Shown here one piece after another: positions 22,098 through 41,057 of a stretch of DNA of 64,000 nt. A model generated the notes under the pieces. That model was not told the DNA's origin, searched no databases, and saw nothing but the letters and a program-made list of their open reading frames with translations. A program made the position numbers and the translations under genes. Source of the DNA: Pseudomonadota bacterium (lineage in GTDB: Bacteria > Desulfobacterota > Desulfobulbia > Desulfobulbales > JAHJIY01); the NCBI GenBank assembly GCA_018823175.1, contig JAHJIY010000085.1:1-64000 (forward strand), given 5' to 3'. Positions within the stretch are counted from its first letter, which is position 1; every line of letters starts with the position of its first letter.

Positions 22098-23426
22098 ATG
22101 CCCACAAATAAACGATTACTTTCTGTTTCAGTTATTTTCCTGTTTGTCTGTCTAGGAATTTCCATCTTTGCGGGCGATCTTTTTGCTGGTCTTTACCTGG
22201 ATTCCGGACATGGGGGGAGCAATGTCGGCGGACAAGGAGTTATCCGCCTGGTTGGTTACGCCGCTGGTAATTGTGCTCATTGTCATGAACAACATGCCAG
22301 TATCGGCGGTTCTGAACCGGTACCGAATGACAGTAAGGCTTCTGAGAGGTTGTTATTTAGTGATTTGAAAACCAGCGGATATGACGATAATGATTTTTGT
22401 CTTTATTGTCATGGCGGAACGATTGGTTTTTCAAATGGGGAAGATGATATTGCTGCTCAATTTTCTAAAGCACCTAATTTACAACATGATCCCGGGACCA
22501 ATAAATCATTAAATCTGGTTAATGGACCGGTCACCTGCCTGAAATGTCATAATCCGCATGTGGCGCAGTCAAGCCCACCAACAAATACTCATGATGAGGC
22601 GGTAGATGGTAATCTGGTGACTGGTCCTGGTTCTACCGTGGTTTCAGGTGCTTTGCAGGGGGTCAGTGGAGTCAGTGCATCCTGGGTAGTTCCTACCGCA
22701 CCGGATCCTGGAGCAGAAAATCTTAGCAATCCCACTTATACTGACATTGATCCGATTACTATGGAATATGAGCTTTGTTTGAAATGCCATAGCACTGAAG
22801 AATCGGCCAGTCCGAATCCTCTAACTCCGCTTGGCGGTCAATTTAATCCAAATAATTACGCCACTCATCCGATTGCGACCACGGCATGGAAGAATACATG
22901 GCTTGTCACTAATGCTGGCTCCGGGATGAAAGCACCATGGAATACAGCCGTTGATCAATCAATGTATTGTAGTGATTGTCATGGGAGTGATGGCAGTGGG
23001 TCGCCGGCGGTCGGTCCGCACGGTTCGACAAATGCTTATATTTTAAAGGCTGTCGGCCCAGGTGTGTCCTATGATAATTTATGTGTCAGCTGTCATAATA
23101 CTCTGGCTGCGGGTGGGACTTCTTGGGGGGGGGGCGCCACAGGGCATCATAATCCTCAGCATCAGGAACCAATAAATCCATTGGGATGTGTCGCCTGTCA
23201 TGGTGGTAGTTTCGCAAATGGTGACCGGGCAGCCAATATTCATGGCACTAATTATCTGGCACCAACTGTTGACCCTGACCCTGGTCGAACGTCAAATAAA
23301 TTTTTAATGCTGGTTAATAATTATGTGACTGCCAGTAACTATACCGGAACGGATACCGTAGGCAATCGGCAATGCACAACAGTTCCCGGGTGTCACTCTA
23401 ATCCTGGAGGAACACGTACTTTTTAG
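22098..23426 (+). CDS. multiheme c-type cytochrome, 7 CXXCH plus one CX5CH
   Basis: A 442-residue exported cytochrome with a signal peptide (about 1-30). Canonical motifs in order are CAHCH, CLYCH, CLKCH, CLKCH, CSDCH, CVSCH and CVACH. Near the C-terminus CTTVPGCH has five residues between the cysteines and would be an eighth heme site if the maturation system accepts it. Long Gly/Ser/Asn/Pro-rich stretches between motifs suggest an extracellular protein. It is the only cytochrome gene of the island on plus and is convergent with the beta-propeller lipoprotein gene, sharing the terminator at 23529-23557. Confidence 0.88.
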   Translation: MPTNKRLLSVSVIFLFVCLGISIFAGDLFAGLYLDSGHGGSNVGGQGVIRLVGYAAGNCAHCHEQHASIGGSEPVPNDSKASERLLFSDLKTSGYDDNDFCLYCHGGTIGFSNGEDDIAAQFSKAPNLQHDPGTNKSLNLVNGPVTCLKCHNPHVAQSSPPTNTHDEAVDGNLVTGPGSTVVSGALQGVSGVSASWVVPTAPDPGAENLSNPTYTDIDPITMEYELCLKCHSTEESASPNPLTPLGGQFNPNNYATHPIATTAWKNTWLVTNAGSGMKAPWNTAVDQSMYCSDCHGSDGSGSPAVGPHGSTNAYILKAVGPGVSYDNLCVSCHNTLAAGGTSWGGGATGHHNPQHQEPINPLGCVACHGGSFANGDRAANIHGTNYLAPTVDPDPGRTSNKFLMLVNNYVTASNYTGTDTVGNRQCTTVPGCHSNPGGTRTF

Positions 23427-25131: not shown

Positions 25132-26184
25132 TTATTTTTTGGTGGTATGACACTCGCCGCAACCATCATAACCACCGGCGGGCCAATTTTTATAGTCCCA
25201 GCGAAGATTGGCATCGTATGGGCTGCCATGGGCCCGGTGGCAGGATAGGCACATGACGATTGCATCAGCAGGCCCGTCTAGTATTGTAGATTGAGTACCT
25301 CCTATTACGTCAAGATCACTTGCTACCGGAGAGACTACACTATAATTTTTACCCGCTGGTCCGTATTGGGAAATATCGGAGTTACCCATATCATAATCGC
25401 TTGGATGACGGACCCAGGGATTTGTAAATATACCCTCAGTGACACCTTTATTGTCCGCACCACTGTGAAAGTCACCATGGCAATTGGCGCAGAGATAATT
25501 GATGGAAGTTGGGTCTAAATCGGACTCATTAATCCGGTCTTTGGCGTTATACTGATTGTGGTTGAGGTTATCAACGGTCAGTTCCCAATCCACGTCTTCA
25601 ATGCCGGCAATCCCGTCAAGGAAACGGTAACTTTCGCTGAGGGAGGCACCGGTTGTCGCCGCCGGCGTATTACTGTGGTGGGTTTTGTACATTGACATCG
25701 TCGGGTTGATTACACTTCGATTGCCGTGGCAACCCCTGCTGCCGGCACATTGCAGAGGCGCGTAATTTGTTGATGTAGGGTTCCCCGGTGCTGGTCCTGA
25801 GGGAAAAAAGGCTACGCCGTCCACATTATGACCTTGTGCATTACTGCCTTCGGAAACCCAGCGGAAGTTCCCGCCGGCCAGAGTATTTCTGGTTGACGCT
25901 CCACTTTCGGTTCCTGTGGTGTCATAGTCGGCGGTGGGGTCGAATACGTATGGTGTACTTCCCTCCGAGTTTGTTCCCTGGTGGCATCCATAGCAGGTGT
26001 TGATCAATAAGGCCTCGTTGCCGGTGGTGTAGGCGGCGGAACCCATGGTCTTGCTGTCCTGGCTGTTGTGCATGGTATGGCAGTTGGCGCAACGATCCGA
26101 CATAGCCGCCGTTCTGGCCAGGCAGATACCAGGTGCTGTCAGGAAAAAAGCCACAATAATAAACCATGGTTTCTTAGCCATCAT
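25132..26184 (-). CDS. OmcS-like hexaheme cytochrome, candidate nanowire subunit (copy B)
   Basis: A 350-residue exported cytochrome. After a signal peptide (about 1-24) the heme order is CANCHTMHNS, CYGCH, CAGSRGCH (five residues between cysteines), CANCHGDFHSG, CLSCHRAHGS and CGECHTTKK at the very end. Geobacter OmcS, a filament-forming six-heme cytochrome, has the same order with near-identical flanks: CHTMHNS at heme 1, CANCH with a nearby His at heme 4, an RHP segment between hemes 4 and 5 (here WVRHPSDYD), CLSCHRAH at heme 5 and a C-terminal CXXCHAKD. Only the third motif differs (CSSCH in OmcS). The propeller gene lies 15 bp upstream, so they are co-transcribed. Filament formation is inferred, not shown. 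Confidence 0.85.
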   Translation of the reverse strand: MMAKKPWFIIVAFFLTAPGICLARTAAMSDRCANCHTMHNSQDSKTMGSAAYTTGNEALLINTCYGCHQGTNSEGSTPYVFDPTADYDTTGTESGASTRNTLAGGNFRWVSEGSNAQGHNVDGVAFFPSGPAPGNPTSTNYAPLQCAGSRGCHGNRSVINPTMSMYKTHHSNTPAATTGASLSESYRFLDGIAGIEDVDWELTVDNLNHNQYNAKDRINESDLDPTSINYLCANCHGDFHSGADNKGVTEGIFTNPWVRHPSDYDMGNSDISQYGPAGKNYSVVSPVASDLDVIGGTQSTILDGPADAIVMCLSCHRAHGSPYDANLRWDYKNWPAGGYDGCGECHTTKK

Positions 26185-26199
26185 AATCCTTACTCTCCT

Positions 26200-27096
26200 C
26201 TATCGGCTAAAAATCTCTACTCGACCGTTACCCGAATCAACAACGCAAAGTCTTCCCCAAGGGTCGAATAATAGATCCTCCGGATAATAAAGCTCCCCCC
26301 GGCCATGACCTTTGCTCAGGAAGTTATATTTGAAAGAGCCGGTTTGATCAAAAACTGCAATAGTTCCATTGTGTCGATCAAGAATATAAAGAAGTCCGGC
26401 CGGTCCGATCTCTAAAGCAAAAGGAAAAGCCAGGCTGCCTTTTAATTGAATTTTTTCAGATTGAGGGCCGTCTGTATTAAATTTATAAACCGCCTTTTCG
26501 GTCCGGGCCAAGGCCCAAATATTCCCGGATTTGACCGTGAAATCAATGAAGCCGCTGGTGCATTCAGGGCAGCCGTAATGTTTAATTCCTTTTAATTTGC
26601 GGTCAAAAAGAATTATATCTCCGGAAGATTTGTCCAGAAGATAGGTGTTTTCCCCATCAATAAAAAGTCGGTCGGGAAAGACTGAAACGCCGCGATATTG
26701 AAGGGAGTGGTTTTCTATTTTTTTCTCTTTGAGGTCTATTTCGGTTAAACTGTTTCTTCCTTTTTCGATGACCCACATTAAACCGTCTTTCTCGCGAACA
26801 ATATCAGTAGGCGTCTTAAGTTTGTTGCTGGCGCTGAATGCATTAAGATAGATCCCTTCTCGCTTAAACGAAAGAAGTCGGTTGTTGCCGGCATCAGCGA
26901 CATAATAGCGTTCCAATTCCTGGTCGACAAAAATATTCCCCGGCAGCAGCATGGGCTTAGTTTTGTCATCGTTGGGTTGATCGCCTCGCAAGCTAAATTG
27001 CCATTGCCATGGATCTTTGGCCAAGGCAGAGGTAAAACACCCTGAGACCAGGATGAAAAGAGACAATATAATAATCGTCAAATGTGTTTTTCTCAT
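26200..27096 (-). CDS. NHL-repeat beta-propeller lipoprotein
   Basis: A 298-residue protein with a lipoprotein signal (LVSGC at about 16-20) and six-bladed NHL-type repeats: VDQELERYYVADAGNNRLL, PTDIVREKDGLMWVIEKGRNSL, and a terminal YYPEDLLFDPWGRLCVVDSGNG. NHL propellers bind proteins or sugars. It is 15 bp upstream of the OmcS-like gene, an arrangement also known for omcS in Geobacter, which supports a role in making or placing the filament. Confidence 0.82.
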   Translation of the reverse strand: MRKTHLTIIILSLFILVSGCFTSALAKDPWQWQFSLRGDQPNDDKTKPMLLPGNIFVDQELERYYVADAGNNRLLSFKREGIYLNAFSASNKLKTPTDIVREKDGLMWVIEKGRNSLTEIDLKEKKIENHSLQYRGVSVFPDRLFIDGENTYLLDKSSGDIILFDRKLKGIKHYGCPECTSGFIDFTVKSGNIWALARTEKAVYKFNTDGPQSEKIQLKGSLAFPFALEIGPAGLLYILDRHNGTIAVFDQTGSFKYNFLSKGHGRGELYYPEDLLFDPWGRLCVVDSGNGRVEIFSR

Positions 27097-27267: not shown

Positions 27268-28440
27268 TTAATAACTTTTGTGGCACTGGATACACAAATC
27301 TTTGCCGCCACTCAATTTAAGATTGAATTTGAAATTTGTGCCATGCGGATAGTGGCAACTGACACAAGTCACTTGTTGCCCGGTCCGAGGGTCAAGGACT
27401 GTTCCGCCAACCGGATGAGTAAACTGACCCTGGGTCTTATGACAGGAATCGCACACTTCAATGCCGTTGCCTTTCAGCATCGCCATATTATTTGAGCCGT
27501 GTAAGGCATGGCAATCACTACAGGAGCCGGTATCAGGATGGCTATGCAGGGTGTTATCATATCCGGCAAAGGTGTTGGCGTGGCAGCTGCGGCAAATCTG
27601 ATTCTGGCGGTTTTTCAACATGCTATTACTGTCCGCGGCGTGGGGACTATGGCATTTCACGCAACTATTAACCGCTTTATCAGTCAAATGATTATGGGCC
27701 GATAAAAGCTGATCCATGATTTCTTCATGGCATTCCAGACATTTATCGGTTTTTACCGGTCCTTTTTCATGACAATCACTGCAGCCTTCTTTGTATGGGG
27801 CATGCAAAACGTTACGGATCAGGTTCTTTCGTTCGCTACCATGTGGGTTATGGCAGGAAAGACATACGCGCAAACGACCGGGAAACCCTTGGTGTTTTTG
27901 TTGCAAGATATTTTCCTGATGACATTTGCTGCAAAGTTTGTCCGGCTCATCGTTAAGTAATTGAGCCCTTTCAGATTGATGGGCGCGATGACATGCCCCA
28001 CAATCACCCTTTTCATAGGGTTGGTGGGTGTAATCATATTTTTTAAGCAGGGTCTTATGACACTTAAAACAGTTTTCACCGGGGGCGCTTTCATTCAATA
28101 ATCCTTTATTTGACGAGGCGTGTGGGGCATGGCAAGACAGGCATTCCCCTTTTTTTACCGGTTTGTGAACGATGCCCTTGCTGAAAGATTCAATTTTATC
28201 CTGATGGCATTGGTAACAGAGTTCGGAGACTTCGCTTGATAAGAGATTTTTATAACGGGCAACATGCGGGTTGTGACATGAAGAACATTTGTTTTCAGCT
28301 ACCGGGCTATGCACGACCTTGCCACTGAAATTTGCTTTTTTATGGCATTTAAAACAGGTAGTGTTGGCCTCCGCCGAAACAATACTGGTAAAAAAGCAGG
28401 TCAGTAATATTAACAGGGACAATTGAATGTTTTTGTTCAT
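27268..28440 (-). CDS. 16-heme c-type cytochrome
   Basis: A 390-residue exported protein with a signal peptide (about 1-24, ending VSAEA) and 16 CXXCH motifs, one per 23 residues. They occur in pairs of the doubled-CXXCH type, with the second often followed by PHG, PHA or AHQ that supplies distal His ligands. There is no lipobox, so it is probably periplasmic, like MtrA-type subunits inside a porin. Its ATG overlaps the TAA of the 26-heme gene by one base (TAATG), which points to coupled and stoichiometric synthesis. Confidence 0.92.
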   Translation of the reverse strand: MNKNIQLSLLILLTCFFTSIVSAEANTTCFKCHKKANFSGKVVHSPVAENKCSSCHNPHVARYKNLLSSEVSELCYQCHQDKIESFSKGIVHKPVKKGECLSCHAPHASSNKGLLNESAPGENCFKCHKTLLKKYDYTHQPYEKGDCGACHRAHQSERAQLLNDEPDKLCSKCHQENILQQKHQGFPGRLRVCLSCHNPHGSERKNLIRNVLHAPYKEGCSDCHEKGPVKTDKCLECHEEIMDQLLSAHNHLTDKAVNSCVKCHSPHAADSNSMLKNRQNQICRSCHANTFAGYDNTLHSHPDTGSCSDCHALHGSNNMAMLKGNGIEVCDSCHKTQGQFTHPVGGTVLDPRTGQQVTCVSCHYPHGTNFKFNLKLSGGKDLCIQCHKSY

Positions 28441-30371
28441 TATTTTGTCCTCCCTGGGTGGCAGGGATTACATTTCCCTTCCATAAACGGTGTATGGCCG
28501 ACTGGATAAAGCAGGGATTTGTCGAGACCTCCATGGGGATCGTGGCACTTGAGACAAGAATCCGGTCCAGGTTTGATTTCTTTATGTGACTGCAGAAAAC
28601 TTTCAGTATTTATCTGATGGCAATCCTGGCAGAGTGACCGGCGGTCTTTTTTCAGGATAGCCACGTTATTCGAGCCATGCGGGGAATGACATTTACTGCA
28701 ATTAATGGTTGCCGGCTGGTGGGCCACTCCATCCTGCCAGTCTTTGGCGATGGCAGAGTGACAGGTAAGACACAGCATGGGCTGTTTCTTGTTTAGATTG
28801 CTGTCGTTGCGGGATCCATGTCCGCGGTGGCAAGTAATGCAGTTAAGAGAGGATACTGGTTTGTGTTCAACTTTGTAATTGGCCAACTCTGTGGCTTTTT
28901 CCGCATGACAGTCAAAACACAATTCGCCGGTTTTCTTCCTGAAAAGAAATTGGTAATCGGCGCTGTGTGCAGAGTGGCAGGTTCCGCATTCGCCGGAACG
29001 GAATGGTTCATGTGTTCCTTCGCCAGATTGGGCTGCGGCCAGTTCCTTATGACAAGTCAGGCATAAGGCGCCGCCTTTCTGGGTTTTATTCAGTAGTTTT
29101 TCAGCGGTCGATTGATGCGGTTGATGGCAACCGGTGCAGTTGCCGGCGCTAAATGGCTTATGAAGGCTGTAGCGGCCTTGTTCTTTGGCTGTTTTTTCAT
29201 GACAATCCAGACAGAGATTTTTCTGACTTTTAATCAGTAGGGTTTGTTCTCCGGACTCATGCGGGTTGTGACAAGTCAGGCATTCTCCTTTAAGGGCCGG
29301 TTGGTGAGATATCAAACCTGAACCATAATCTTTTTTCTGATGACAGGTAAAACATAAAGTTGTGGCTGGAGAACGGAGGAGTGATTTTTCAAGGGACGCG
29401 TGACCTTGATGGCACTTCAGGCAATTTCCATTTTTGGCAGGGGCATGAAGGCTTTTCATCTGTTTGTTCGTATTTTGGCCCTGACTGTGGCAGGCAAGAC
29501 AGACTTTTGCTGGTGAATTGTTTAACATCCCGCTGTAATCACTGGCATGTGGCCCATGGCAGGAGGTGCATTTTTTTTCGATATATGGTTGATGGAGGTG
29601 CCCGGCAGCGGTTCCATCGTGGCACTGCAGACAAAGAGTATCGGGCTCATCTTTTATTTTAATATCTTTATTGGCGTCGATCTTATGACATTCATTACAT
29701 TCACCGGCTTTCACCGGGCTATGGAGAACATCTTTCAATAATCCTTTATTATCAGAGCTGTGTGGTGTGTGGCATGACATACAGTTTGATTTTACCGGAT
29801 ATTGAAAATGACTATTTTTGAACGAATCAGTGTTCAGATCATGGCATCCCTGGCATAATTCCGTGGTCTTTTTGAGTAACAGGGATTCGTTGTTGGTTGC
29901 GTGGGGATTATGACAGGTTTTACATCCTTGCTGTAATGGGGCGTGAATGTTTGTTTTTACAAAATCACTTCGGTCATGACAGGCAAAACATGCTTCCTGA
30001 CCCTCAGCTTTTAAAAGTTTGGAGTATGGGCTGTTATGGACCTCGTGGCAGGCGGTGCATTTCCCATTAGTAAATGGCTGATGTACGGATTTCATTGAGG
30101 ATGAAGCGGCCAGGTCTTGATGACAGCGGTAACAAAGGGCGGGGGGCTCCTGTTTAAGGTAGAGACCGCCGATAAAGCCGTGCGGAAGATGGCAATCCTT
30201 ACAGTCTTTTTTGCGGACAGGTTCATGAACAATACCGGTTAAATACTTGTCGGCCATTTCAGCATGACAATCCAGACATTCCTTTCGTGTCTTTTGGGAA
30301 GGGTTGGTAGTTCCGCACGCTGTAAGGCCCAGGACCATGCAACATAAAATCAATAGAAGTTTATTTTTCAT
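28440..30371 (-). CDS. 26-heme c-type cytochrome lipoprotein
   Basis: A 643-residue predicted lipoprotein (lipobox LTAC at about 16-19) with 26 CXXCH motifs in tandem doubled units, each typically CXXCH...CHxPH. Almost no sequence lies between heme units, so it should form an extended heme wire. Lipidation suggests attachment to the outer membrane, inside or outside. The start overlaps the isomerase gene by 11 bp and the end overlaps the 16-heme gene by 1 bp, so isomerase, 26-heme and 16-heme proteins come from one message. Confidence 0.93.
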   Translation of the reverse strand: MKNKLLLILCCMVLGLTACGTTNPSQKTRKECLDCHAEMADKYLTGIVHEPVRKKDCKDCHLPHGFIGGLYLKQEPPALCYRCHQDLAASSSMKSVHQPFTNGKCTACHEVHNSPYSKLLKAEGQEACFACHDRSDFVKTNIHAPLQQGCKTCHNPHATNNESLLLKKTTELCQGCHDLNTDSFKNSHFQYPVKSNCMSCHTPHSSDNKGLLKDVLHSPVKAGECNECHKIDANKDIKIKDEPDTLCLQCHDGTAAGHLHQPYIEKKCTSCHGPHASDYSGMLNNSPAKVCLACHSQGQNTNKQMKSLHAPAKNGNCLKCHQGHASLEKSLLRSPATTLCFTCHQKKDYGSGLISHQPALKGECLTCHNPHESGEQTLLIKSQKNLCLDCHEKTAKEQGRYSLHKPFSAGNCTGCHQPHQSTAEKLLNKTQKGGALCLTCHKELAAAQSGEGTHEPFRSGECGTCHSAHSADYQFLFRKKTGELCFDCHAEKATELANYKVEHKPVSSLNCITCHRGHGSRNDSNLNKKQPMLCLTCHSAIAKDWQDGVAHQPATINCSKCHSPHGSNNVAILKKDRRSLCQDCHQINTESFLQSHKEIKPGPDSCLKCHDPHGGLDKSLLYPVGHTPFMEGKCNPCHPGRTK

Positions 30372-32034
30372 TTACTTTAACCCCGAATTCCTCTCTGATT
30401 TTCTGCCAAATTTCCTGGTTGATTGAAATATTGGCTATTGTTTTAAGTTTATCAATATATTCCTTTTTAATTATATCAGATTTTCCTTTTTTAATTTTTT
30501 TAGAAATTTCAGTTGAAACTTTTTCAAGAGGAAGGGATCTGCCCTGGATCTGGTTAATCATTTTGACCATGGCATATCCGGCATTATGAACAAAAGGAGG
30601 ACTGACTTCGCCTTTGACAAGTTTTTTGAACTCCAGTTGCAGGTTCTCCGGCAGCTTTTCAAGGGGTTCTTGCTTAATCTCGAGGTCTTCACTGTAATAT
30701 TTTTTGGCCAAATCAAAAAAGTCTCCCCCCTGGATAATTGAGGCCCATACTTTGCTGACCAGGTTTTCCTCACCGGTCAACATGGCGTAATTGATCACAG
30801 TAGGCATGGAATATTGAGCCTTGTTTGCTTGGTAATACTGGTCAATTTCCTCATTTGAAATTTGAACCTGAGAAAGCAAACTACTTTCGAGTTCTGCCTT
30901 AAGGCGGTTGCCCTGGTAGAACTCATAAATCCACTTGAGAGGCGGATTTTTTTCGTAATGTCTGTTCATTGATTCCAAGGAAATAAGGGTATCGTACACT
31001 GCGTTGAATAATATTGTTTTTTTGAGTTCTTCCAAATTGATTGTTTTGTCTATGCCGTACCTGTTTTGATAAGTCCAGTCGTTACTGATGACTCTTATCA
31101 TGTCATCAACTGTAATCCCCGTTTCATTTTCAGTCATGGTGACAACTTTTTTGTCTAAAAACTCAGAGGAATAGTTACGGGCCTTTGGGTCAATTTTGGC
31201 CAAGAGGTCTTCATCGATCTGCACATTATATTTCTTCTCAAGACGTTCAATTAGTTTCTGGGATAAATCGTTGGTAGCTTTCTTTACCAGTTCGTGTTGG
31301 CACAACTTTTGTTTTTCTGCGAAATCATCATCCGGGGGTATTAATTGTTCATGCAATCTGAGAAAAATGAATTTGCCGTCGTCCTCGAAAGGTTCCGCCA
31401 CATACCCTGGTTTAAGTTTGCGCAAAACAGAAAGCCAATTTTTTTTGTTTTTCTTGGAGCTGAGTGACTCTGGCAGAACCTGTATCTGTTCAAAGGATAT
31501 TGGCCCGCCATTTTCCGGTAAAATACCTTTCTGGTCGGTGAACGGGAGGTGTCCTGCCGGCGAACCGTTATACTGTTGCATTTCGTTAAAGGCCTTCATG
31601 GCGTCAGTCTGGTTATTATAGGTTAGGGCCTGAATACGCCAGATAGGGGTATAGTTTTCCTGGTAAAAATCTTTGATATCCTGTGCGCTGATTTTTATTT
31701 TAGAGTCGATCTCTTCATTTTTTAACAACATCATGTTTCGGACTGAAAGGAAGATCTTTAATTTTCTTTGGTAGGATGGAAGATTGTATAATTCTCTTTC
31801 CTTAGCCTGGTTGACCATCAGGTTCCACTCGATGAATGAGTCTGGGGTTTCGGGGAAAGGGGTCTCTTTTTCCTTCCAGTTTTGCCACCAATGGCGGAAA
31901 TCATCGGCCGTAAGGTCCTGGCCGTTGATCGAGGCTAAAGGTTTTTCCTGCCCAAACCATGCGCTGGCATTATGGCCGGACAATAATATTATTAACAGGC
32001 AAAAAGAGATCGGTTTAATTATTTTCCAACGCAT
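30361..32034 (-). CDS. PpiC-type periplasmic peptidyl-prolyl isomerase
   Basis: A 557-residue SurA/PpiD-like protein with a signal peptide (about 1-25, ending NASA). A SurA-type N-terminal helical region starts LASINGQDLTADDFRHWW. Parvulin-like segments are seen at about 120-210 (TPIWRIQALTYNNQTDAMKAF) and 400-480 (VINYAMLTGEENLVSKVWASI ... KLPENLQLEFKKLVKGEVSPPF). It probably chaperones the neighbouring outer-membrane or exported cytochromes, as it is made from the same message and overlaps genes on both sides (16 bp upstream, 11 bp downstream). Confidence 0.8.
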   Translation of the reverse strand: MRWKIIKPISFCLLIILLSGHNASAWFGQEKPLASINGQDLTADDFRHWWQNWKEKETPFPETPDSFIEWNLMVNQAKERELYNLPSYQRKLKIFLSVRNMMLLKNEEIDSKIKISAQDIKDFYQENYTPIWRIQALTYNNQTDAMKAFNEMQQYNGSPAGHLPFTDQKGILPENGGPISFEQIQVLPESLSSKKNKKNWLSVLRKLKPGYVAEPFEDDGKFIFLRLHEQLIPPDDDFAEKQKLCQHELVKKATNDLSQKLIERLEKKYNVQIDEDLLAKIDPKARNYSSEFLDKKVVTMTENETGITVDDMIRVISNDWTYQNRYGIDKTINLEELKKTILFNAVYDTLISLESMNRHYEKNPPLKWIYEFYQGNRLKAELESSLLSQVQISNEEIDQYYQANKAQYSMPTVINYAMLTGEENLVSKVWASIIQGGDFFDLAKKYYSEDLEIKQEPLEKLPENLQLEFKKLVKGEVSPPFVHNAGYAMVKMINQIQGRSLPLEKVSTEISKKIKKGKSDIIKKEYIDKLKTIANISINQEIWQKIREEFGVKVNEK

Positions 32035-32648
32035 ATTTTTAATCCTTTATTAATCCAAGCTGTAATGATTTCCTGTGAAACAACTTTTGACAGTTCTGCT
32101 ATGGTATTTATTTTGCCGAAATGAAGAAATTTCTGGTATTGCTTTGCTTCCCTTCGATGGTAGGTACTCCATAAGGTCCGACCGGAATCGGTTTCGATTA
32201 TCCGGAGAATGACGGCCAGGGAAACAGGTTGTCGACCTCGTTGCTCATCGTTACCACTCATTTCAATAATAGTCCCGCTGACCACAATTTTTGAGCCTAA
32301 CCGTCCTCCTAACGATCTTACTTGTTCGAGAGAAGTTTGTTGTCCGATAAATACTCTCATTTGTCTTAATATTTTGCGAACATCACCTTCCTGAGAGATT
32401 AAATAATTACCGGTGGACAAAAGCTCTGAGGTGAAGATCCGGTAAAACAGGGTGTCTGCGGTTTTGCTTTCTGTTTGATTGATGAACGGCAATACGGTTA
32501 TCTGGCAGATCTGTCCTTCATCCGGTAAAGCGGCAAGTTGCAAAACGGTTGGTGACTCCTTGAAAGAGCAACCGGTGGCAATCATATGGAGTAAGGTAAT
32601 TAGTATTAATTGCCGCCAATAATTATTAATTTTAAATTTTTTCATCAA
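32019..32648 (-). CDS. CsgG/LpoB-like lipoprotein
   Basis: A 209-residue predicted lipoprotein (lipobox ATGC at about 24-27). The mature part has the alpha/beta pattern of the CsgG/LpoB/GNA1162 group: ICQITVLPFINQTESKTADTLFYRIFTSELLSTGNYLISQE, then LGSKIVVSGTIIEM and a strand with a DSGRTLWS turn. CsgG itself forms the curli export pore, while LpoB is a regulator, so function cannot be read from fold alone. It starts the gene run isomerase, 26-heme, 16-heme. A weak promoter (TTAACA, 19 nt, TATAAT) lies in the 94-bp gap upstream. Confidence 0.65.
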   Translation of the reverse strand: MMKKFKINNYWRQLILITLLHMIATGCSFKESPTVLQLAALPDEGQICQITVLPFINQTESKTADTLFYRIFTSELLSTGNYLISQEGDVRKILRQMRVFIGQQTSLEQVRSLGGRLGSKIVVSGTIIEMSGNDEQRGRQPVSLAVILRIIETDSGRTLWSTYHRREAKQYQKFLHFGKINTIAELSKVVSQEIITAWINKGLKICVGK

Positions 32649-32742
32649 ATTAAACGTTGGTTAAATTAACTGATTATAAATTTTATCAGTACTTTTGTGT
32701 TAAGCTGGAAGTAGGTATTTTTTATTACCGGGGTTAAAGCCA

Positions 32743-34359
32743 TTAAAATTCATCTAGCCAAGCCGGACCGGAACTTGTCTTTTCACCTTCTTTTACTTCA
32801 GGCGCAACTAATGACTGGATATCTTTAATTACCTGCCTTGATTGGTTGCCTAGGACATCACGCATCAAAATGATGCATTCAACTTTTCTGGTTTCACCAG
32901 CCAGTGGATCGATAATATCAGTCTGGATTGAATAGTCCTCATTTTCCGCTACTTTGACAATGTTTGGCCCACTGTTTTCCGCCACTTTAACAATATTTTG
33001 GCTATTATCTTTGGCGACCTTGATTACGTTATTGGGAAGCTGGATATCCATTCTAAAAGGTAAATTATCACCTTCCGCTACTTTTATTATTTCTCCGTTT
33101 TCGCCGCGGACCTCCATGCGCCAGAATGCGATGGGCACCTGTCCCTCGTGGTTTAAGTCAACAATCATGTCCCTCCCAAGATTTTTTGCTTCCAGCACCA
33201 TAGCTGGCGGGGTGCGGGCAATTGCGACCTGTTGCGATGTCACCGACAAATTCTCTGCGCGATCCCAGACCTGGAGCATAATTTCGTATATTCCTTCTTC
33301 TGATAGCCAGCCGCTTTTTTTGCGTCCGTTCCAGACAAACTGCCGGGGCAGATTTCCGTAACCGCTTCGGCTCATCTGTTCTTCGCCTGCCTCATCTTCA
33401 ATGGTTATTTTCCAACGGGCCACTGGCTCACGTTTGATCATGTGGGGAAGAATAATAACCTGGTCCCGAAAGGCCACGGTTCCTTCTAGACGGACTCCTT
33501 TAAGTTCCAGCACCAGTTTAGGTGGTGCACTGTCAACATTGTAGGCCCCCAGAAAAGTCACTTTTTTATTACCTGATGGCCAATCGACAACCATAGTTAC
33601 CGGGTAGCGGCCATCTCGGTCGGAGACGACCCAGTTGGATTCGTAAGAGTATCCGTCTGGTGATTGACGTGCCAGGTGGACCCGGCCTCCCACCTTGAAA
33701 AAGAGACGAGGCATATCCGTTTCCGACCATTTGGTGCGCAGGCTGACTGAGCATGAAACCTGGTCGCCACGACGGACATGGGAGGGACGCAGGTCTACGT
33801 ATTCGATTTCCAGTGGTGGTTGTTGGCTGACGATAAACTCAAGTTCATCAGGCCAATCTTCCAAAACTCTTTGGGCCAGAAGGGGTACTAGTCCTTCTGG
33901 CGGGCCACTATCGCCAATTCCAAGCAGGCTAATTATGTCGTCCTGGCATAGGCCACCTGAAGCGGACCATAAAGTCCTGCTGTCGTCTGATCTTGCCAGG
34001 TAAAGGGTAAGTCCCAAGGAAGGGTCTTTAAGGTTCTGGCCCAGGGTTATAGTGCCGAAAAGCACTAAGTCAGCTCCGAGCTCATCTTTAGCCTTAATAA
34101 TGTGCTTGGTGTCGAGAAAGCCAAGCCAGCGCATCCTGTTTCTGACCATAAAGGCCTCGACGTTTTCATTACTGATCACATCAAGTCCTTTTTCCGATAG
34201 TTCCCAGGCAAGATAATCGGTTACTTCCTTATTGATCCCGTTTGAACCCTGGCTCAGGTCTTCAATGGGGATAATGGCCACGGTCATGGCTTGACTGATC
34301 GAAACATTAACCAAAAAATAGAGGATGAGACTGCAATAAAATAAATATTTAGTAAACAT
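32743..34359 (-). CDS. CsgG-like domain protein with Ig-like domains and 11-residue repeats
   Basis: The frame is open from GTG 34380. ATG at 34359 with GAGGT 7 nt upstream is preferred and gives a clean signal peptide (MFTKYLFYCSLILYFL ... SQA). Residues about 25-170 have the CsgG/TolB-N-like fold (TVAIIPIEDLSQGSNGINKE, ADLVLFGTITLGQ, SRTLWSASGG). The remainder is beta-rich with Ig-like pieces (FVWNGRKKSGWLSEEGIYEIMLQVWDRA, FlgD-like turn). At 32938-33090 lies a short array of four copies of an 11-residue unit with core [IV]KVA[EK]. There is no lipobox, so the protein is probably periplasmic or surface-exposed. Confidence 0.6.
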   Translation of the reverse strand: MFTKYLFYCSLILYFLVNVSISQAMTVAIIPIEDLSQGSNGINKEVTDYLAWELSEKGLDVISNENVEAFMVRNRMRWLGFLDTKHIIKAKDELGADLVLFGTITLGQNLKDPSLGLTLYLARSDDSRTLWSASGGLCQDDIISLLGIGDSGPPEGLVPLLAQRVLEDWPDELEFIVSQQPPLEIEYVDLRPSHVRRGDQVSCSVSLRTKWSETDMPRLFFKVGGRVHLARQSPDGYSYESNWVVSDRDGRYPVTMVVDWPSGNKKVTFLGAYNVDSAPPKLVLELKGVRLEGTVAFRDQVIILPHMIKREPVARWKITIEDEAGEEQMSRSGYGNLPRQFVWNGRKKSGWLSEEGIYEIMLQVWDRAENLSVTSQQVAIARTPPAMVLEAKNLGRDMIVDLNHEGQVPIAFWRMEVRGENGEIIKVAEGDNLPFRMDIQLPNNVIKVAKDNSQNIVKVAENSGPNIVKVAENEDYSIQTDIIDPLAGETRKVECIILMRDVLGNQSRQVIKDIQSLVAPEVKEGEKTSSGPAWLDEF

Positions 34360-34512
34360 AAGCCTTACCTCTTTCTCCACGAAACCCGGAAAATAAAAGT
34401 GAATAGTGACAAGTTGAAAAGTTATGGCGTTATCTGATTTGACTGTTTTCTGTGTTGCTCGAAGTCTGTCGTTTACCTGGAGTCTATAACTTCACAGTTG
34501 ATACCTCGTGTT

Positions 34513-34521
34513 ATTATACCA
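34513..34521 (-). promoter_or_regulatory. extended -10 promoter
   Basis: On the minus strand, TGGTATAAT is a perfect extended -10. No clear -35 lies upstream. It would start a leader of about 145 nt for the CsgG-like/Ig protein gene and possibly the cytochrome genes after it. Confidence 0.5.
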
Positions 34522-34600
34522 CAAAATATCAGTTCATTACAGCAGATAGCCCTTTGGATATTTAAATTGTCTTTATCAATTCACTTTTAACTATTCATAA

Positions 34601-35182
34601 TTATTTTTTGGCTGGAATAGTTGACAGCATCTTTTTCATTAACTTAAGGGTAATATGAAATTTGTCGGTCGGCGCCAGGCCGAAAAGGCGACCTGCCATT
34701 GAATCGGCGCTCCACCTGGCGCTGGATTGCCAGATAACAACCGATGATTTGGAATCTACCAGTCTAAGGGTTACCGCCAGGTCCGGAAAGGCGATAGTCC
34801 CTTTGCGTACTTCACCCGATTCATCGATTGAACCCAATAAAAAAGCCTCTACGTTCAGTCTCTGGGCCAGACGCTTGAGGTTAAGCAGGTCAATGGGCTT
34901 GCCTGGGTCAATTACTTCTTCCATCATGACGCTATCTACGATACCCATATCAACGACATCGGATATCCCCATGGCCAGGACCTGGGTAATAGCGACGTCC
35001 CTGACCCGCTGGGCGGCATATTTGTCATCGGTATGGTTTTCAAAAGGCAGAACCACCAGCCGGTTTATCAGGTCCAGATCCACGTCTTCCCGTAAAAATG
35101 ATTGAGAAGAGAATTTCCCGCTGCAACCTCCGATTAATAAAGTAAACATTGCTATGAGCAGCACAATAGAGCACTTTCGCAT
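34601..35182 (-). CDS. CsgG/LpoB-like lipoprotein
   Basis: ATG at 35180-35182 is preferred over the track-long frame because it gives a lipoprotein signal (MRKCSIVLLIAMFTLLIGGC) and has an AAAGGGG box upstream. The mature protein of about 173 residues shows the CsgG/LpoB pattern: LVVLPFENHTDDKYAAQRV, VEAFLLGSIDESGEVRKG, VTLRLVDSKSSVVIWQSS. It is the third protein of this fold within 3.5 kb. It lies just downstream of the beta-barrel gene, suggesting an outer-membrane assembly role. Confidence 0.65.
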   Translation of the reverse strand: MRKCSIVLLIAMFTLLIGGCSGKFSSQSFLREDVDLDLINRLVVLPFENHTDDKYAAQRVRDVAITQVLAMGISDVVDMGIVDSVMMEEVIDPGKPIDLLNLKRLAQRLNVEAFLLGSIDESGEVRKGTIAFPDLAVTLRLVDSKSSVVIWQSSARWSADSMAGRLFGLAPTDKFHITLKLMKKMLSTIPAKK

Positions 35183-35251
35183 GCCTGGTACCCCTTTATC
35201 CTTTTGATTTACGGTTAATCGACTTCTCTGGTCATACAAACGAAGCCGCGG

Positions 35252-37357
35252 TTAATAGGTCGAAAATCTTGCTGTTAAAACACTTTTCAAAATTATATCT
35301 TCTTGCAAATCGTTCTTGATGTAGTTGCCGATGAATTGCATGAAAATATTGGAACTAACGGTCCAACGCAAGTTAACATCCCCCGAATGGGTGTTGACGG
35401 TTGCATGCGTTATTGAATAGCTCATACTCCCTTGAATTTTCGGGGTTATGGCCAGTACCAAACTGAGGTTGCTGGTTTCCCGTTTACTTTCGCCCCAAGT
35501 TTTTTGTCCAGAGAAGGCCAGGGAAAGAAGGTCGGAAACCCGCCAGCCCATGTTGATTGATGTTTTATAGGTGTCGGTTGTAGTTGTGCTTTGGTTATTA
35601 GTGTATTCGCCGGAAAAGGAGGTGGTTATTTGTGGATTAAGGCGGGCCGAAAAATAAAGTATGGTTGTCAATTGTTTGTTCTCTTTGCTGTCGTCTTCCG
35701 GTTTAGTTGTGGTATGAGTTGCCCGGAGCTGGGAAGAAAGGTCAGGATAAAGCTGGGCGGTGATGTTTGCTGCGAAACTATAATTCTGGGAGGTTTTCTC
35801 GTTATTCGTGTAATTGTCATTGACTGAGCCGTTTAGACCAAGGTCAAGAGTAGGTAGCAACTCTGAATTTAATCCCAAGCCATAGGATTTGATATTGGTT
35901 TCGGTATAGGATTTGATATTGGTTTCGGTATGATCTGTGTTTTTACGCCAGGAGTCGTTTACGTTAATTTGGGTTTTGAATTTAGTGGTTGGCCGCCAGG
36001 CAATGGATCCGCTTTGGTTCCGGGTCTCTACACTTGTCTCTGTTGGTTGAGATTCGGTCTGGCTCATCGTCAGATTGTAGTTTAGGCTAACTGTTTCTGT
36101 CAGTTGCAAGCCAAGGGAGGCATTGGTCTGGTTTTGGAGATTCTCGGAGGAAGTTGGAACAATAGTCCCGATGGTGCCGGTTATCTGATCAAAGGCCTCA
36201 ATTTCGGTAAAGTTGATTGTTCCAGCCCCGGGGTAGTCCAGCAAAACAAGTTTGAGATAGATTTGTTGCTGCTTCTGGACTGGAATCTCAAAACGATAGG
36301 TATTGTTTATCGGATCGGTGTTATAGATTACGGTATTGGCATCAAGAGTCTCTTGCGCAAAGTTGATGCCGTCAGTGCTTGACCACAACTGCCAATTAAA
36401 ATTATTTGGCATGGCGACGCTGATGTCCACATCCGTATAAAGGTAAATCATATCGACTTCGGCCAGATTTGTTTTCAGATCGATATTATAGTCGATCCCC
36501 GCTGGCGGGAGGGTGATTGCCGGGGTCAGCAGATCCTGGTTGGTCATGGCAACGGTAACATCGGTAAAAGTAGAACCATCACTGCTCTCAGGGTTGTCGT
36601 CAATGCTCCATCTTATTTGGGAAATCGGCTTGTTCAGCAAGGCAAAGCCACTACTGGTAATCAGAGAATCCTTGTCACTTTGACTGTTTTGCTGTTGATA
36701 AGAAAATGATGTATTGAGGCGATTGTTCCAGAATAAATGGGCGGCCGAGATTCGGGCTGAATAATTTGTGGATATCTCATCATCGTTGCTGATCATTGTA
36801 TTATCTATTTGTCGCCAGTTGCCGCTTAAATATATCTTGGCTAAAATCAGGTTCCAGTTAAGGGTGCCGCCGGCATTAGTCTGTTCTAATTCCTGGAACC
36901 GGCCGCTGGAATTTTGGCCGAAGGAGGCAGTAAGGTTAGGGGCTAATTCATTCTTCCAGGCGCTGGTCAAATAGCTGTCCCAGGAAGTGGATTTGCTATA
37001 TCCTGAGATACTGTTATCAATTTCCGTTATTGATCCGCTAAGATCAAGGTCAAACAGGTAGTTTTGAAGATTCATGGATAAGTTTGGTGATAAATTTTTG
37101 GTGGTTGCGCCGTTTTCGATCCAGGTGATGCTATAACGTATATTTTCCTGGACATTCATTAAGTCAGTGACCGGCTGTTCAAACGATGCGCTATATGACT
37201 GGCGGTATGATTGGATGAAATTATCATTGTCATCCTCATCAATATTCCAGTTACCGTTAAAGTTGAGATTGACCGCCGGTGCCGGGTTCGGAATAAGTAG
37301 GACAAAGATCATGCCCAGCGCCAGAAGGTAATATCTTTTAATGATTTGTGTTTTCAT
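35252..37357 (-). CDS. outer-membrane beta-barrel protein, candidate conduit porin
   Basis: ATG at 37357 is preferred over GTG 37396 because it gives a normal signal peptide (MKTQIIKRYYLLALGMIFVLL ... APA) and the best promoter would start RNA near 37388. The mature protein of about 675 residues alternates polar and aromatic residues in strand pairs with Asn/Thr/Ser-rich turns and ends in an aromatic residue (ARFSTY), as outer-membrane barrels do. Residues about 245-400 interrupt the pattern with a discoidin-like beta sandwich (FNWQLWSSTDGINFAQE, IYLKLVLLDYPGAGTINFTEIEAF). An 8-residue duplication (TETNIKSY twice) comes from a 24-bp perfect repeat at 35882-35929. It could hold a cytochrome in the manner of MtrB, but this is inference from context. 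Confidence 0.7.
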   Translation of the reverse strand: MKTQIIKRYYLLALGMIFVLLIPNPAPAVNLNFNGNWNIDEDDNDNFIQSYRQSYSASFEQPVTDLMNVQENIRYSITWIENGATTKNLSPNLSMNLQNYLFDLDLSGSITEIDNSISGYSKSTSWDSYLTSAWKNELAPNLTASFGQNSSGRFQELEQTNAGGTLNWNLILAKIYLSGNWRQIDNTMISNDDEISTNYSARISAAHLFWNNRLNTSFSYQQQNSQSDKDSLITSSGFALLNKPISQIRWSIDDNPESSDGSTFTDVTVAMTNQDLLTPAITLPPAGIDYNIDLKTNLAEVDMIYLYTDVDISVAMPNNFNWQLWSSTDGINFAQETLDANTVIYNTDPINNTYRFEIPVQKQQQIYLKLVLLDYPGAGTINFTEIEAFDQITGTIGTIVPTSSENLQNQTNASLGLQLTETVSLNYNLTMSQTESQPTETSVETRNQSGSIAWRPTTKFKTQINVNDSWRKNTDHTETNIKSYTETNIKSYGLGLNSELLPTLDLGLNGSVNDNYTNNEKTSQNYSFAANITAQLYPDLSSQLRATHTTTKPEDDSKENKQLTTILYFSARLNPQITTSFSGEYTNNQSTTTTDTYKTSINMGWRVSDLLSLAFSGQKTWGESKRETSNLSLVLAITPKIQGSMSYSITHATVNTHSGDVNLRWTVSSNIFMQFIGNYIKNDLQEDIILKSVLTARFSTY
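35882..35929. repeat. 24-bp in-frame tandem duplication
   Basis: Two identical 24-bp copies inside the barrel gene encode TETNIKSY twice. The unit is a multiple of three, so copy-number change would not break the frame. Confidence 0.9.
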
Positions 37358-37396
37358 CAGCTGGATAATATACTTCCCGGTTGTCCGCCAATCCAC

Positions 37397-37425: not shown

Positions 37426-37826
37426 CCGACGTACCCCCCCCAGGGTACTTCCTTATGAATGTAAAAAATCATCTAACACGTTTAGTTCAGGTTTACTTAA
37501 TTACATATTATTTTTTGATTAACACTAATTTTTAGCCATAAAAAAGGTTATCCAACTCTGTGTTATCTGTAGACAACGTAAAGCATGCAAAATGATTTCG
37601 CCACAACCTATGCTTAGAGTCAGCGTTATAAGATTGCCACGTCACAAAGTTTATACCCCTTGCGGGGTGCTTCTTGCAAAGACTTGCAAGGTTTCGTCTC
37701 TACAGTAAGCCCAAATTAGATGGTAACCAGATATTATTTCAACTGCATGCAAAGTCCATAATGTACATGTGCACCGCCGCCCGCCGGGATATTCCCCCGG
37801 CGGGCGGCGGTGCGATTATTCGTCGA
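37426..37826. other. intergenic region, barrel to cytochrome
   Basis: No convincing gene. It contains the inverted repeat at 37431-37448, an ACCCCTTGCGGGGT palindrome near 37655, a CTTGCAA/TTGCAAG inverted pair near 37674-37690, and the 17-bp GC-rich stem at 37771-37813. The density of small palindromes suggests repeat debris. Confidence 0.5.
37771..37813. repeat. 17-bp GC-rich perfect stem-loop
   Basis: Arms 37771-37787 and 37797-37813 are perfect reverse complements (GCACCGCCGCCCGCCGG) with a 9-nt loop. It sits 14 bp after the stop of the 14-16-heme cytochrome gene. No T-run follows on either strand, so it may stop transcription weakly or protect the 3' end of the message. Confidence 0.8.
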
Positions 37827-39563
37827 TCAGCGACTGTGCTTGATCTGCGGGTTGTTCCGGTCATAGGTCTTGGGAGCGTGGCAGCCGACCACACACGTCC
37901 CGCCTACCTTACTCTTGGTAAAGCTGATCGGGTACGACCAGGCCCCGAACGGTACCTCATAACGAACATGCTTGCCCTGGTTGCTGGCATGGGCATCATG
38001 ACATGAGGTGCAGGTCCGGCCTTTTTTCATGTTAACGTGAAAGTAGTGCAGGTTATAGTTGCCGTCTCTGAAGTTGGTCAGGGTCGTGGTCAGTTTGGTT
38101 TTGGCGATGTCCTTGTTGTGACAGCCAAAACACAAGTCATAGTTTTCCGGTTCATAGGGACTGTAAAATTCCATCGGGAAATAGCGGGCCAGCAGTTTGG
38201 AAAACTGTGAACCGTGCACGTTATGACAGGCGGCGCAGTCACCGGTCTGAACCGGACCGTGCCGATTCTGGCTGTCGGCAATAATATCGCCGAGGTCGGT
38301 ATGGCAGGAGAGGCAGAGCTTCTCCATGGAATCCTTGAGTAGCGACCCGTAATTGGAGGAATGGGGCCGGTGACAGGCGACACATTTACCTTCGTCTACC
38401 GGCGGATGTTTAACTTTGGCGGTGTTGATCGCCGTATAGATCTCGGGAGTCGCCTCTTCATGGCAGGAGGCGCAAAGTTTCCCTCCCTCTTCGTGCAGTT
38501 GGTAAGGGGCGTCGGAACTGTGCGGGTCATGGCACTTGTTGCAATCTTCCTGGACCGGGGCGTGGATATTCTCCATGGTGAATTCAGCCTTGCGGTCTTC
38601 ATGGCATTCAAAACAAAGTTGGCCGTCCTTGGTTGGCGCGATCAGTAGACTGGCATTGGCCGAAGAGTGGGGCTGGTGACAGGCGATGCACATGCCGCTG
38701 CCCACCGGGCCATGCTGATGTTTTTTGGTAAAAATCCCGTCTTCATGGCAGTTGAAACACAAGGCGCTGATCGCCTCACCTTCCGCTTTTAACTGGAAGC
38801 GCATATTTGATTGATGGGGATCATGACAGTCGGTGCAACCTTCTTCGACCGGGGCGTGGATAACCTCTTGGTTAAATTCTTCTTTTTTGGCTTGGTGACA
38901 GACCAGACAAAGATCGCCGCCGGTGCGCTGCAGGGCCTTTGCTTCAAAGGTGCCGTGCGGGCTGTGGCAAGAGATGCAGACGCCAGCCCCGACCGGACCG
39001 TGGACATGTTTGGCCTTGCCTTTATCGGTATGACATTCCCCGGTGGTGCAGTCGGCCCGGGCCGGGATTATTTTTTTAAAATCGTATTCCCCCTTCTTTA
39101 ATCGATGGCAATCCTGGCAATTAAGGGTTGAGGGTTTCTGGTGAACATAAAATCTTTTAAAATCCTTGGGCGGCGCATTTTTCTTCTGGTCCGGGGTGTA
39201 AAAGACCCGCACCGAGGTCTGCAGCTTGTCGCTGCCTATTTTTATCGTGTTCAGCCCATTTTTTAAGCTGACCGGCGCGCCGAAAACTCCGCCTTCATTA
39301 ACTGTGGCCCGGTCATTTTTGAGCTTGGTGTCCACTCCCTTGAGCTCAATGTTATCTATTTTGATCCCCTGGACGGTGCCGGCCAGAAACAGGTTTTTTT
39401 CGGTTACCCACACGGCGTCTGGCGGGGAGACTATTCGGATGGCCGGGTCGGCGGCCAGAGCCGGCCGGCTAAAGATTAAAGCGCCGTTAACGACGGATAT
39501 AAACAGAAGCAATAGTAGCCGGATATCATGACATCTCATCCTTTTCTTCCCCATCATGGTCAT
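37827..39563 (-). CDS. c-type cytochrome with 14 CXXCH, one CX4CH and one CX3CH
   Basis: A 578-residue exported cytochrome. A signal peptide (about 1-37, ending PALA) is followed by an Ig-like non-heme domain (about 39-125; IRIVSPPDAVWVTEKNLFLAG). Fourteen canonical motifs follow in doubled units. The second site from the N-terminus is CTTGECH (four residues between cysteines) and the last is CVVGCH (three residues). CX4CH is known from cytochrome c3 families, while CX3CH is uncommon. The decaheme protein at 45882-47093 has a similar N-terminal domain. The first ATG lies 3 nt after AAGGAG, and the third codon ATG is an equally good start. Confidence 0.9.
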   Translation of the reverse strand: MTMMGKKRMRCHDIRLLLLLFISVVNGALIFSRPALAADPAIRIVSPPDAVWVTEKNLFLAGTVQGIKIDNIELKGVDTKLKNDRATVNEGGVFGAPVSLKNGLNTIKIGSDKLQTSVRVFYTPDQKKNAPPKDFKRFYVHQKPSTLNCQDCHRLKKGEYDFKKIIPARADCTTGECHTDKGKAKHVHGPVGAGVCISCHSPHGTFEAKALQRTGGDLCLVCHQAKKEEFNQEVIHAPVEEGCTDCHDPHQSNMRFQLKAEGEAISALCFNCHEDGIFTKKHQHGPVGSGMCIACHQPHSSANASLLIAPTKDGQLCFECHEDRKAEFTMENIHAPVQEDCNKCHDPHSSDAPYQLHEEGGKLCASCHEEATPEIYTAINTAKVKHPPVDEGKCVACHRPHSSNYGSLLKDSMEKLCLSCHTDLGDIIADSQNRHGPVQTGDCAACHNVHGSQFSKLLARYFPMEFYSPYEPENYDLCFGCHNKDIAKTKLTTTLTNFRDGNYNLHYFHVNMKKGRTCTSCHDAHASNQGKHVRYEVPFGAWSYPISFTKSKVGGTCVVGCHAPKTYDRNNPQIKHSR

Positions 39564-40022: not shown

Positions 40023-41057
40023 TTATTTTGAGGTATGACAGATAAAGCAACCAGCCTCAGCAGAACCGACTGTATCATCACCTGGAAATGCAGCAAGAGT
40101 GGTTCCGGCGTTCATGTTAGCAAGATTCCAACGCAGGAGATCCGGGTAGGCTGAACCATGGGACATATGGCAGCTGAGACAGATTACCTGACCGGTCGTG
40201 GTGTTGGTGTTGGTCATTTCGCCCAGAGGAATGGCTGGGTTATAAACGCCACCATTGGCGTCATTATATGCTTCACCAGTCAGGTTGGCATTTACTGGGA
40301 TATCGGTTGGATGCCGCTTCCAGATCTGAGCAGATCCAGCACCAGCGACACTCAATTGGTTTGACGAGCCATGGAAATTGCCGTGACATACGCCGCAAAC
40401 GGCTGCGCCCATACCGTTAGTTATATCAGCTGAATAACGACTAGAGCCGACAACTTCGGCTGCATCGTATCCGTAGTTAATGCCTTCAGTGCCGTCGACA
40501 AATACTGCGGAACCTTGTACTTCAAGGAAGCGGTAGCTGCCACCGTTTGTTGTGCCAACGGTATTTAATACAGTATTTGCGTTGGAATGATGAGCGCCAA
40601 CTGCATTATGACAACCGAGAGCGCCACTACAGGACAGAGTATTTGCAGCAACAGCTCCACCTGGTGAAACGGTCAAAGTGCCGTCATTGGACTGTTTACT
40701 AACGGCAATTAGATCGGCCACATTGTGAGTTTGATTTGAAGTATTTGAAAAATAGCCACCGGCCAATGGATTTGCAATGTCGTTAACCTGTGGTGCTGCT
40801 GGGCCGTTTGCGCCACTTGAGTAACCAGTGGCGGTGTTTGGGTCCGCGTTATGCGCATGGCAACCAACGCAGTTATTGGCCAATAACAGCTGGTTGTTAC
40901 CGGTGGTATAAGCAACCCCACCGACTGATGCTCCGTCCTGGCTGTTGTGCATGGTGTGACAGCCGCTGCATGGTCCACCCAAGGCAAAAACGGTGGCTGG
41001 CAATGCCAGGGCCGCAGTTGCAAGGGCAGCGATGATTGTTCTTTTTACTGTAATCAT
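40023..41057 (-). CDS. OmcS-like hexaheme cytochrome, candidate nanowire subunit (copy A)
   Basis: A 344-residue exported cytochrome with a signal peptide cleaved near VFA-LGG. The heme order is CSGCHTMHNS, CVGCH, CSGALGCH (five residues between cysteines), CGVCHGNFHGS, CLSCHMSHGS and CFICHTSK at the C-terminus. Spacing and flanks match copy B at 25132-26184 and Geobacter OmcS, including an RHP segment between hemes 4 and 5 (WKRHPTDIP). It has its own promoter, an AGGAGG ribosome site, two 3' hairpins and no co-transcribed gene, as expected for a highly made structural protein. It is the stronger candidate for the major filament subunit. Confidence 0.87.
   Translation of the reverse strand: MITVKRTIIAALATAALALPATVFALGGPCSGCHTMHNSQDGASVGGVAYTTGNNQLLLANNCVGCHAHNADPNTATGYSSGANGPAAPQVNDIANPLAGGYFSNTSNQTHNVADLIAVSKQSNDGTLTVSPGGAVAANTLSCSGALGCHNAVGAHHSNANTVLNTVGTTNGGSYRFLEVQGSAVFVDGTEGINYGYDAAEVVGSSRYSADITNGMGAAVCGVCHGNFHGSSNQLSVAGAGSAQIWKRHPTDIPVNANLTGEAYNDANGGVYNPAIPLGEMTNTNTTTGQVICLSCHMSHGSAYPDLLRWNLANMNAGTTLAAFPGDDTVGSAEAGCFICHTSK

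Follow-up and report, generated by a model that had tools for sequence, protein, structure and literature searches.

A four-gene core coding for a 26-heme cytochrome, a 16-heme cytochrome, a peptidyl-prolyl isomerase and a six-bladed propeller was described in the partners of anaerobic methanotrophic archaea (ANME) and in their relatives (Skennerton et al. 2017, PMC5539420). No porin was recognised in that operon, and the four core proteins were predicted to be periplasmic and unattached to the membrane. Murali et al. 2023 (PMC10553843) gave the name OetABI to a conduit in which OetI is the barrel, OetA is periplasmic and the lipoprotein OetB faces outward; Desulfobulbia are among the taxa listed there. 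In Geobacter sulfurreducens, the 26-heme protein is GSU2495 (~70 kDa; PMC12977616). According to PMC13194489 (citing Shen et al. 2025), GSU2495 and GSU2494 are the oscI and oscJ genes of the osc (OmcS companion) operon, the omcS operon of that species, and roles have been proposed for OscH in the folding, OscE-G in the secretion and OscD in the morphology of OmcS filaments; the same text gives oscI and oscJ as periplasmic (PMC13194489). Here we analyse a gene cluster in a 64,000-nucleotide stretch (the window) of contig JAHJIY010000085.1, from a bacterium of the order Desulfobulbales. Genes for an outer-membrane barrel, three lipoprotein-type proteins, a peptidyl-prolyl isomerase, a 26-heme and a 16-heme cytochrome all lie on its minus strand, running from 37357 to 27268. 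Judged by its sequence relationships, the cluster is almost certainly a member of the osc/oet group. The original prediction had proposed a new outer-membrane conduit. The cluster is not new: papers of 2017 and 2023 already describe the operon, and in Geobacter it corresponds to osc.

In the literature, these genes have been proposed to form a conduit or, alternatively, an assembly system. They bear on two questions: by which path electrons pass from the periplasm to extracellular cytochrome filaments, and how the filaments exit the cell. We lean towards a combined reading, in which a barrel/lipoprotein-ring exporter for OmcS-type filaments is joined to a 42-heme wire by which they are charged. 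A ring of PelC/LpoB-like lipoproteins would work with the barrel to export and anchor OmcS-type cytochrome filaments, while the isomerase would hold the filament subunits export-competent. The 26- and 16-heme cytochromes would stack into one ~42-heme wire across the periplasm, anchored by the lipidated 26-heme end (where the lipid is present), and electrons would pass from this wire into the base of the filament at the barrel (or the other way round). Filament assembly would be tuned by the beta-propeller. A more specific form of this idea is held tentatively: OscI/OscJ-type cytochromes may be two pieces of one transperiplasmic 42-heme wire, joined in several fusions, that plugs into the exporter formed by PelC ring and barrel and charges the OmcS-type filament on its way out. 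If true, exporter and electrical contact would be one machine. The reading builds on the gene set, its order, the heme counts, the flanking OmcS homologues, the PelC-like lipoproteins, the wide predicted barrel and the repeated fusion; from these we infer export, ring formation, contact with the wire and the direction of electron flow. Together, the 42-heme fusions, the PelC-like lipoproteins and the wide barrel offer a concrete, testable joint model, and the fusion proteins are single-chain targets for structure determination. The fusion, the likeness to PelC, the ~30-strand barrel with a conserved F5/8C-like insert and the CX5CH motif of the OmcS homologues are additions beyond the papers cited.

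The features of the cluster are as follows, in order of transcription:

40023-41057, minus strand: OmcS-like cytochrome with five CXXCH motifs and one CX5CH (CSGALGCH)
37827-39563, minus strand: multiheme cytochrome with 14 CXXCH, one CX3CH and one CX4CH
35252-37357, minus strand: outer-membrane barrel (OetI/OscE counterpart) with ~30 predicted strands; its open frame extends to a GTG at 37396
36233-36601, minus strand: F5/8C (discoidin)-like domain within the barrel, ~residues 253-375, by profile match
34601-35239, minus strand: lipoprotein 1 (LpoB1), PelC/GNA1162 fold by profile match, OscF counterpart
32743-34380, minus strand: protein 2 (LpoB2), N-terminal LpoB-like domain and C-terminal FlgD/Ig-like part by weak profile matches; lipobox absent
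32019-32648, minus strand: lipoprotein 3 (LpoB3), PelC-like by profile match, OscG counterpart
30361-32034, minus strand: periplasmic PPIC-type peptidyl-prolyl isomerase/chaperone (PF13145, 1.3e-14), OscH counterpart
28440-30371, minus strand: 26-heme MtrA-like lipoprotein cytochrome (26 CXXCH; lipobox LTAC, cysteine 19), OscI counterpart of the GSU2495 type
27268-28440, minus strand: 16-heme cytochrome (16 CXXCH; Sec-type N-terminus), OscJ counterpart of the GSU2494 type
26200-27096, minus strand: NHL-repeat beta-propeller lipoprotein (PF01436, 2.4e-11; lipobox VSGC)
25132-26184, minus strand: OmcS-like cytochrome with five CXXCH and one CX5CH (CAGSRGCH)

The coordinates confirm the overlaps noted in the original prediction (11 bp between the isomerase and 26-heme genes, 1 bp between the 26- and 16-heme genes), and counts of CXXCH bear out its heme numbers of 26 and 16. 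LpoB3 and the isomerase overlap too, by 16 bp. As parts of the cluster, LpoB1, LpoB2 and LpoB3 were assigned to 34601-35182, 32743-34359 and 32019-32645. The NHL propeller, which adjoins the 16-heme gene, completes the four-gene core published earlier. The conserved neighbourhood is wider than 27268-37357: upstream it takes in the 14-heme cytochrome together with an OmcS homologue, downstream the NHL propeller together with another.

With the osc operon of G. sulfurreducens (the GSU2494-GSU2504 region; Shen et al. 2025, through PMC13194489), the window shares the 26-heme OscI, the 16-heme OscJ, the isomerase OscH, the barrel and lipoproteins OscE-G, the propeller OscD and adjoining OmcS-type cytochromes. 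In contrast to what is given there, the window also holds the two-domain LpoB2, a 14-heme cytochrome upstream of the barrel and CX5CH-bearing OmcS homologues. Our comparison of barrel and lipoproteins with the Geobacteraceae rests on a Geomonas locus (L128), not on G. sulfurreducens itself. Its order is propeller, barrel, LpoB1, LpoB3, isomerase, 26-heme and 16-heme, by which OscD-OscJ would map one to one. Family profiles built from the window's order match this locus in the same order (LpoB1 154 bits, LpoB3 87, isomerase 172), but the window proteins have diverged: the Geomonas barrel scores just 103 bits. The OetABI clusters of ANME-partner sulfate reducers share the 26-heme, 16-heme, isomerase and propeller core, the barrel and OmcS-like partners; neither a lipoprotein ring nor a cytochrome fusion is mentioned in the searched passages of Murali et al. 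2023.

Within the window's order, a search with the barrel gave matches in 31 of 58 genomes, spread over 24 of 34 genera. Nearly all loci keep one arrangement: 14-heme or OmcS-like cytochrome, barrel, LpoB1, LpoB2, LpoB3, isomerase, 26-heme, 16-heme, NHL propeller, OmcS-like cytochrome. The isomerase gene lies directly upstream of the 26-heme gene in the window and in its relatives. Barrel identity between genomes is merely 23-31%, while gene order and heme counts hold; the counts of 26 and 16 are nearly fixed in the order, and none of the 26 heme motifs varies in a 14-row alignment of the 26-heme protein. Barrel and 16-heme gene occur together in 29 genomes; 2 genomes have only the barrel and 2 only the 16-heme gene, and two of these four are draft assemblies in which the cluster contig is cut. 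Beyond the order, scanning named genomes with a 16-heme alignment returned 80 loci, most of them with the same block, from Desulfobulbaceae, Desulfocapsa, Thermodesulfobacterium, Desulfuromonas, Geomonas, Anaeromyxobacter and Nitrospira and from bins named Acidobacteria, Planctomycetota, Lindowbacteria and others. Geomonas, Nitrospira and others have the block with a shorter lipoprotein set. Such synteny (~30 genomes of the order, plus other phyla), together with the invariant heme sites, rules out chance or an annotation artefact. One genome of the order carries two copies of the cluster on a single contig of 3,097,763 bases; two copies were already published for Desulfurivibrio alkaliphilus (PMC5539420).

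The wire is suggested by gene fusion. In eight loci, a single open frame joins the 26- and 16-heme proteins and contains exactly 42 CXXCH: L035, L037 and L085 (one Desulfobulbales clade), L114 (a Deltaproteobacteria bin), L096 and L109 (Acidobacteriota bins), L126 (an FCB bin) and L134 (a Lindowbacteria bin). In one family (f6), the 16-heme region lies inside an open frame of 1012-1185 residues in five of the six genomes searched, the sixth having no 16-heme match at the cut-off used; by open-frame length, G018, G037 and G052 of this family are further fused cases. With 77 26-heme sequences in the tree, four changes are required to explain the fused state, and well-supported branches force at least three. 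Sequencing error is ruled out as a source, as the fusions recur in several genomes and two genera within a family as well as in further phyla, and every one has 42 CXXCH and normal spacing at the joint. Between hemes 26 and 27 there are 21-26 residues, and the usual spacing has a median of 23-24.5, so the repeat continues without a flexible linker. This repeated, seamless joining suggests that the two cytochromes act together as a single long wire, rather than as the inner and outer partners of the original prediction.

Sequence likeness to a known straight cytochrome points the same way. The 26-heme protein matches the MtrA chain 6r2q_A (phmmer, 1.2e-19) and TIGR03508 above its cut-off. MtrA itself carries ten hemes in a straight rod of ~80 angstrom; at that scale, 42 hemes would extend over more than 300 angstrom, enough to span the periplasm as far as the barrel or into it. 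No 42-heme cytochrome of such kind was mentioned in the limited set of literature searched.

The case for an exporter comes from the small proteins between barrel and isomerase. With single sequences, Pfam matches for LpoB1, LpoB2 and LpoB3 are absent or below the curated cut-off; family profiles back the lipoprotein fold for LpoB1 (5t11 3.6e-7, 5t10 6.2e-7, PelC 9h80 2e-4, GNA1162 4hrv 4.2e-4) and LpoB3 (PelC 9h80, E=2e-7), and weakly for LpoB2 (LpoB 4q6z 4.5e-3, FlgD 7eh9 3.3e-3). By these profile matches, LpoB1 and LpoB3 are related in sequence to the PelC-type ring lipoprotein. In the Pel exporter PelBC, twelve PelC lipoproteins form a ring that serves the PelB barrel (PMC12141448), and PelC-like lipoproteins beside a barrel, given this precedent, support an exporter in the cluster. 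In both systems the genes for PelC-fold lipoproteins adjoin an outer-membrane barrel gene, whereas the window has two to three different PelC/LpoB-like proteins and cytochromes in place of glycan enzymes. The original description of a barrel with three CsgG/LpoB-like proteins upstream on the same strand thus stands for their position and lipoprotein fold (weakly for LpoB2) and falls for CsgG: a CsgG channel was rejected for these small proteins, as the Pfam and NCBIfam matches include no CsgG family and the likeness is to LpoB, GNA1162 and PelC.

The AlphaFold2 model of the barrel (34 relatives) is confident, with a predicted local distance difference test score (pLDDT) of 87.1 and a predicted template modelling score (pTM) of 0.65. 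It shows 12 strands, the inserted domain (~residues 253-375) and then 18 strands, ~30 in total. MtrB has 26. At ~30 strands the barrel is predicted to be wide enough for a cytochrome, an MtrCAB-type conduit having about 26 strands or more, which answers the concern that it might prove too narrow for a heme wire. The insert resembles the F5/8C domains of galactose oxidase (best profile E=8.5e-6); PF00754 was found in 3 of 34 barrel members, and the Geomonas barrel has an F5/8C-like insert too. Since it follows an even number of strands, the insert would lie on the periplasmic side if the N-terminus is periplasmic. Against the MtrB chain 6r2q_B the model aligns over 422 residues (Z 16.6, root-mean-square deviation 10.6), the longest aligned stretch among the matches listed, with a score tied with many other barrels; overall, the model resembles large barrels of many kinds. 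Siderophore receptors, the top Foldseek matches, were likewise taken as generic large barrels and not as kin. A strong, G+C-rich hairpin of 19 pairs, perhaps a terminator, an attenuator or a repeat element, lies at 37770-37814, between the genes for the 14-heme cytochrome and the barrel.

The presumed cargo is encoded on both sides of the block. The family profile of the flanking five-CXXCH cytochromes matches the OmcS structure 6ef8 over nearly its full length (E=2.6e-52). In the order, every one of the 31 genomes that carry the 16-heme gene also encodes an OmcS homologue; of the 27 that lack this gene, 20 have none (Fisher 5e-10). Five CXXCH and one CX5CH are found in 49 of 59 OmcS homologues from named loci (L057-L136). 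The CX5CH (mostly CAGxxGCHG) sits where OmcS has a normal CXXCH, and its near-invariance suggests a possible sixth heme with an unusual attachment in a filament cytochrome.

Several points weigh against an exporter joined to a wire. The structure prediction for the 42-heme protein is poor (pLDDT 65, pTM 0.33), so that a straight wire is drawn from MtrA homology and spacing. The co-occurrence with OmcS homologues is partly due to the shared cluster. What OmcS filaments do physiologically is itself a matter of dispute (PMC11077965). Finally, OetB lies outside the cell according to Murali et al., which disagrees with a purely periplasmic wire.

The main rival, which we consider rather unlikely, is a classical porin-cytochrome conduit (OetABI of Murali 2023; MtrCAB-like), with one cytochrome in the periplasmic side of the barrel, the other outside, and OmcS-type filaments docking externally after export by something else. 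It is already proposed in print (PMC10553843) and would suit the MtrA-like 26-heme protein, the predicted barrel width, the longest alignment to MtrB among the matches listed and the lipobox found in most Desulfobulbales 26-heme copies. As in MtrCAB and PioAB, a large barrel is paired with an MtrA-like cytochrome with doubled CXXCH, but the window has far more hemes and additional lipoproteins, an isomerase and filament genes. Nor does the barrel belong to the same sequence family, as neither the window's barrel nor its 33 relatives gave a Pfam match to MtrB/PioB at E<=0.01. Nearly all relatives have lipoprotein-fold and chaperone genes between barrel and cytochromes; such genes are not known to be part of Mtr/Pcc conduits. 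Moreover, a seamless cytochrome fusion fits one wire better than partners on opposite sides, and the absence of the lipobox from many 26-heme copies and several fused proteins weakens an essential surface-lipoprotein role. The original prediction holds in treating the 26-heme protein of the window as a lipoprotein, although the lipid anchor is not universal among relatives; it also holds for one outer-membrane electron-transfer unit but not for a stand-alone conduit, as the OmcS-type filament genes, the chaperone and the PelC-like lipoproteins point to filament export and charging.

An improbable alternative has the cytochromes serve only as a periplasmic electron store (capacitor) and redox link, co-transcribed with an independent exporter made of the barrel and lipoproteins. 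The heme-dense, peptide-minimal build of such proteins (PMC12977616), the predicted periplasmic, unattached state of the four core proteins (Skennerton 2017, PMC5539420) and the periplasmic placement of oscI and oscJ in PMC13194489 are in its favour, but the tight linkage of barrel and 16-heme gene over phyla argues for a joint job. Pel-like export of a polysaccharide or other polymer, with the cytochromes as bystanders, would account for PelC-like lipoproteins beside a barrel with a carbohydrate-binding-type F5/8C insert, but is very improbable given how strictly OmcS homologues and heme proteins are linked to these genes, and no polysaccharide synthesis gene was recognised among the neighbours read (no search was aimed at such genes).

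Besides the proposed exporter and wire, the gene upstream of the barrel varies among relatives, where a 14-heme cytochrome and an OmcS homologue alternate. Full-length relatives of the 14-heme cytochrome, 53-65% identical, adjoin the barrel in L027, L028, L034, L036, L039, L040, L043, L047 and L051, and the N-terminus of the window's copy has a weak match to a Glucodextran_B-like domain. Outside the conserved block, a cytochrome with seven CXXCH and one CX5CH (CTTVPGCH) is encoded on the opposite strand at 22098-23426. A bin labelled Heimdallarchaeota (L087) carries the cluster with a tree position among Thermodesulfobacteriaceae, likely a binning error. Last, a diverged second 16-heme gene (E ~1e-111) was found in several genomes of the order, at G015:C36, G025:C76, G046:C4, G049:C22 and G051:C15; these contigs also hold OmcS homologues, which suggests a second cluster type.

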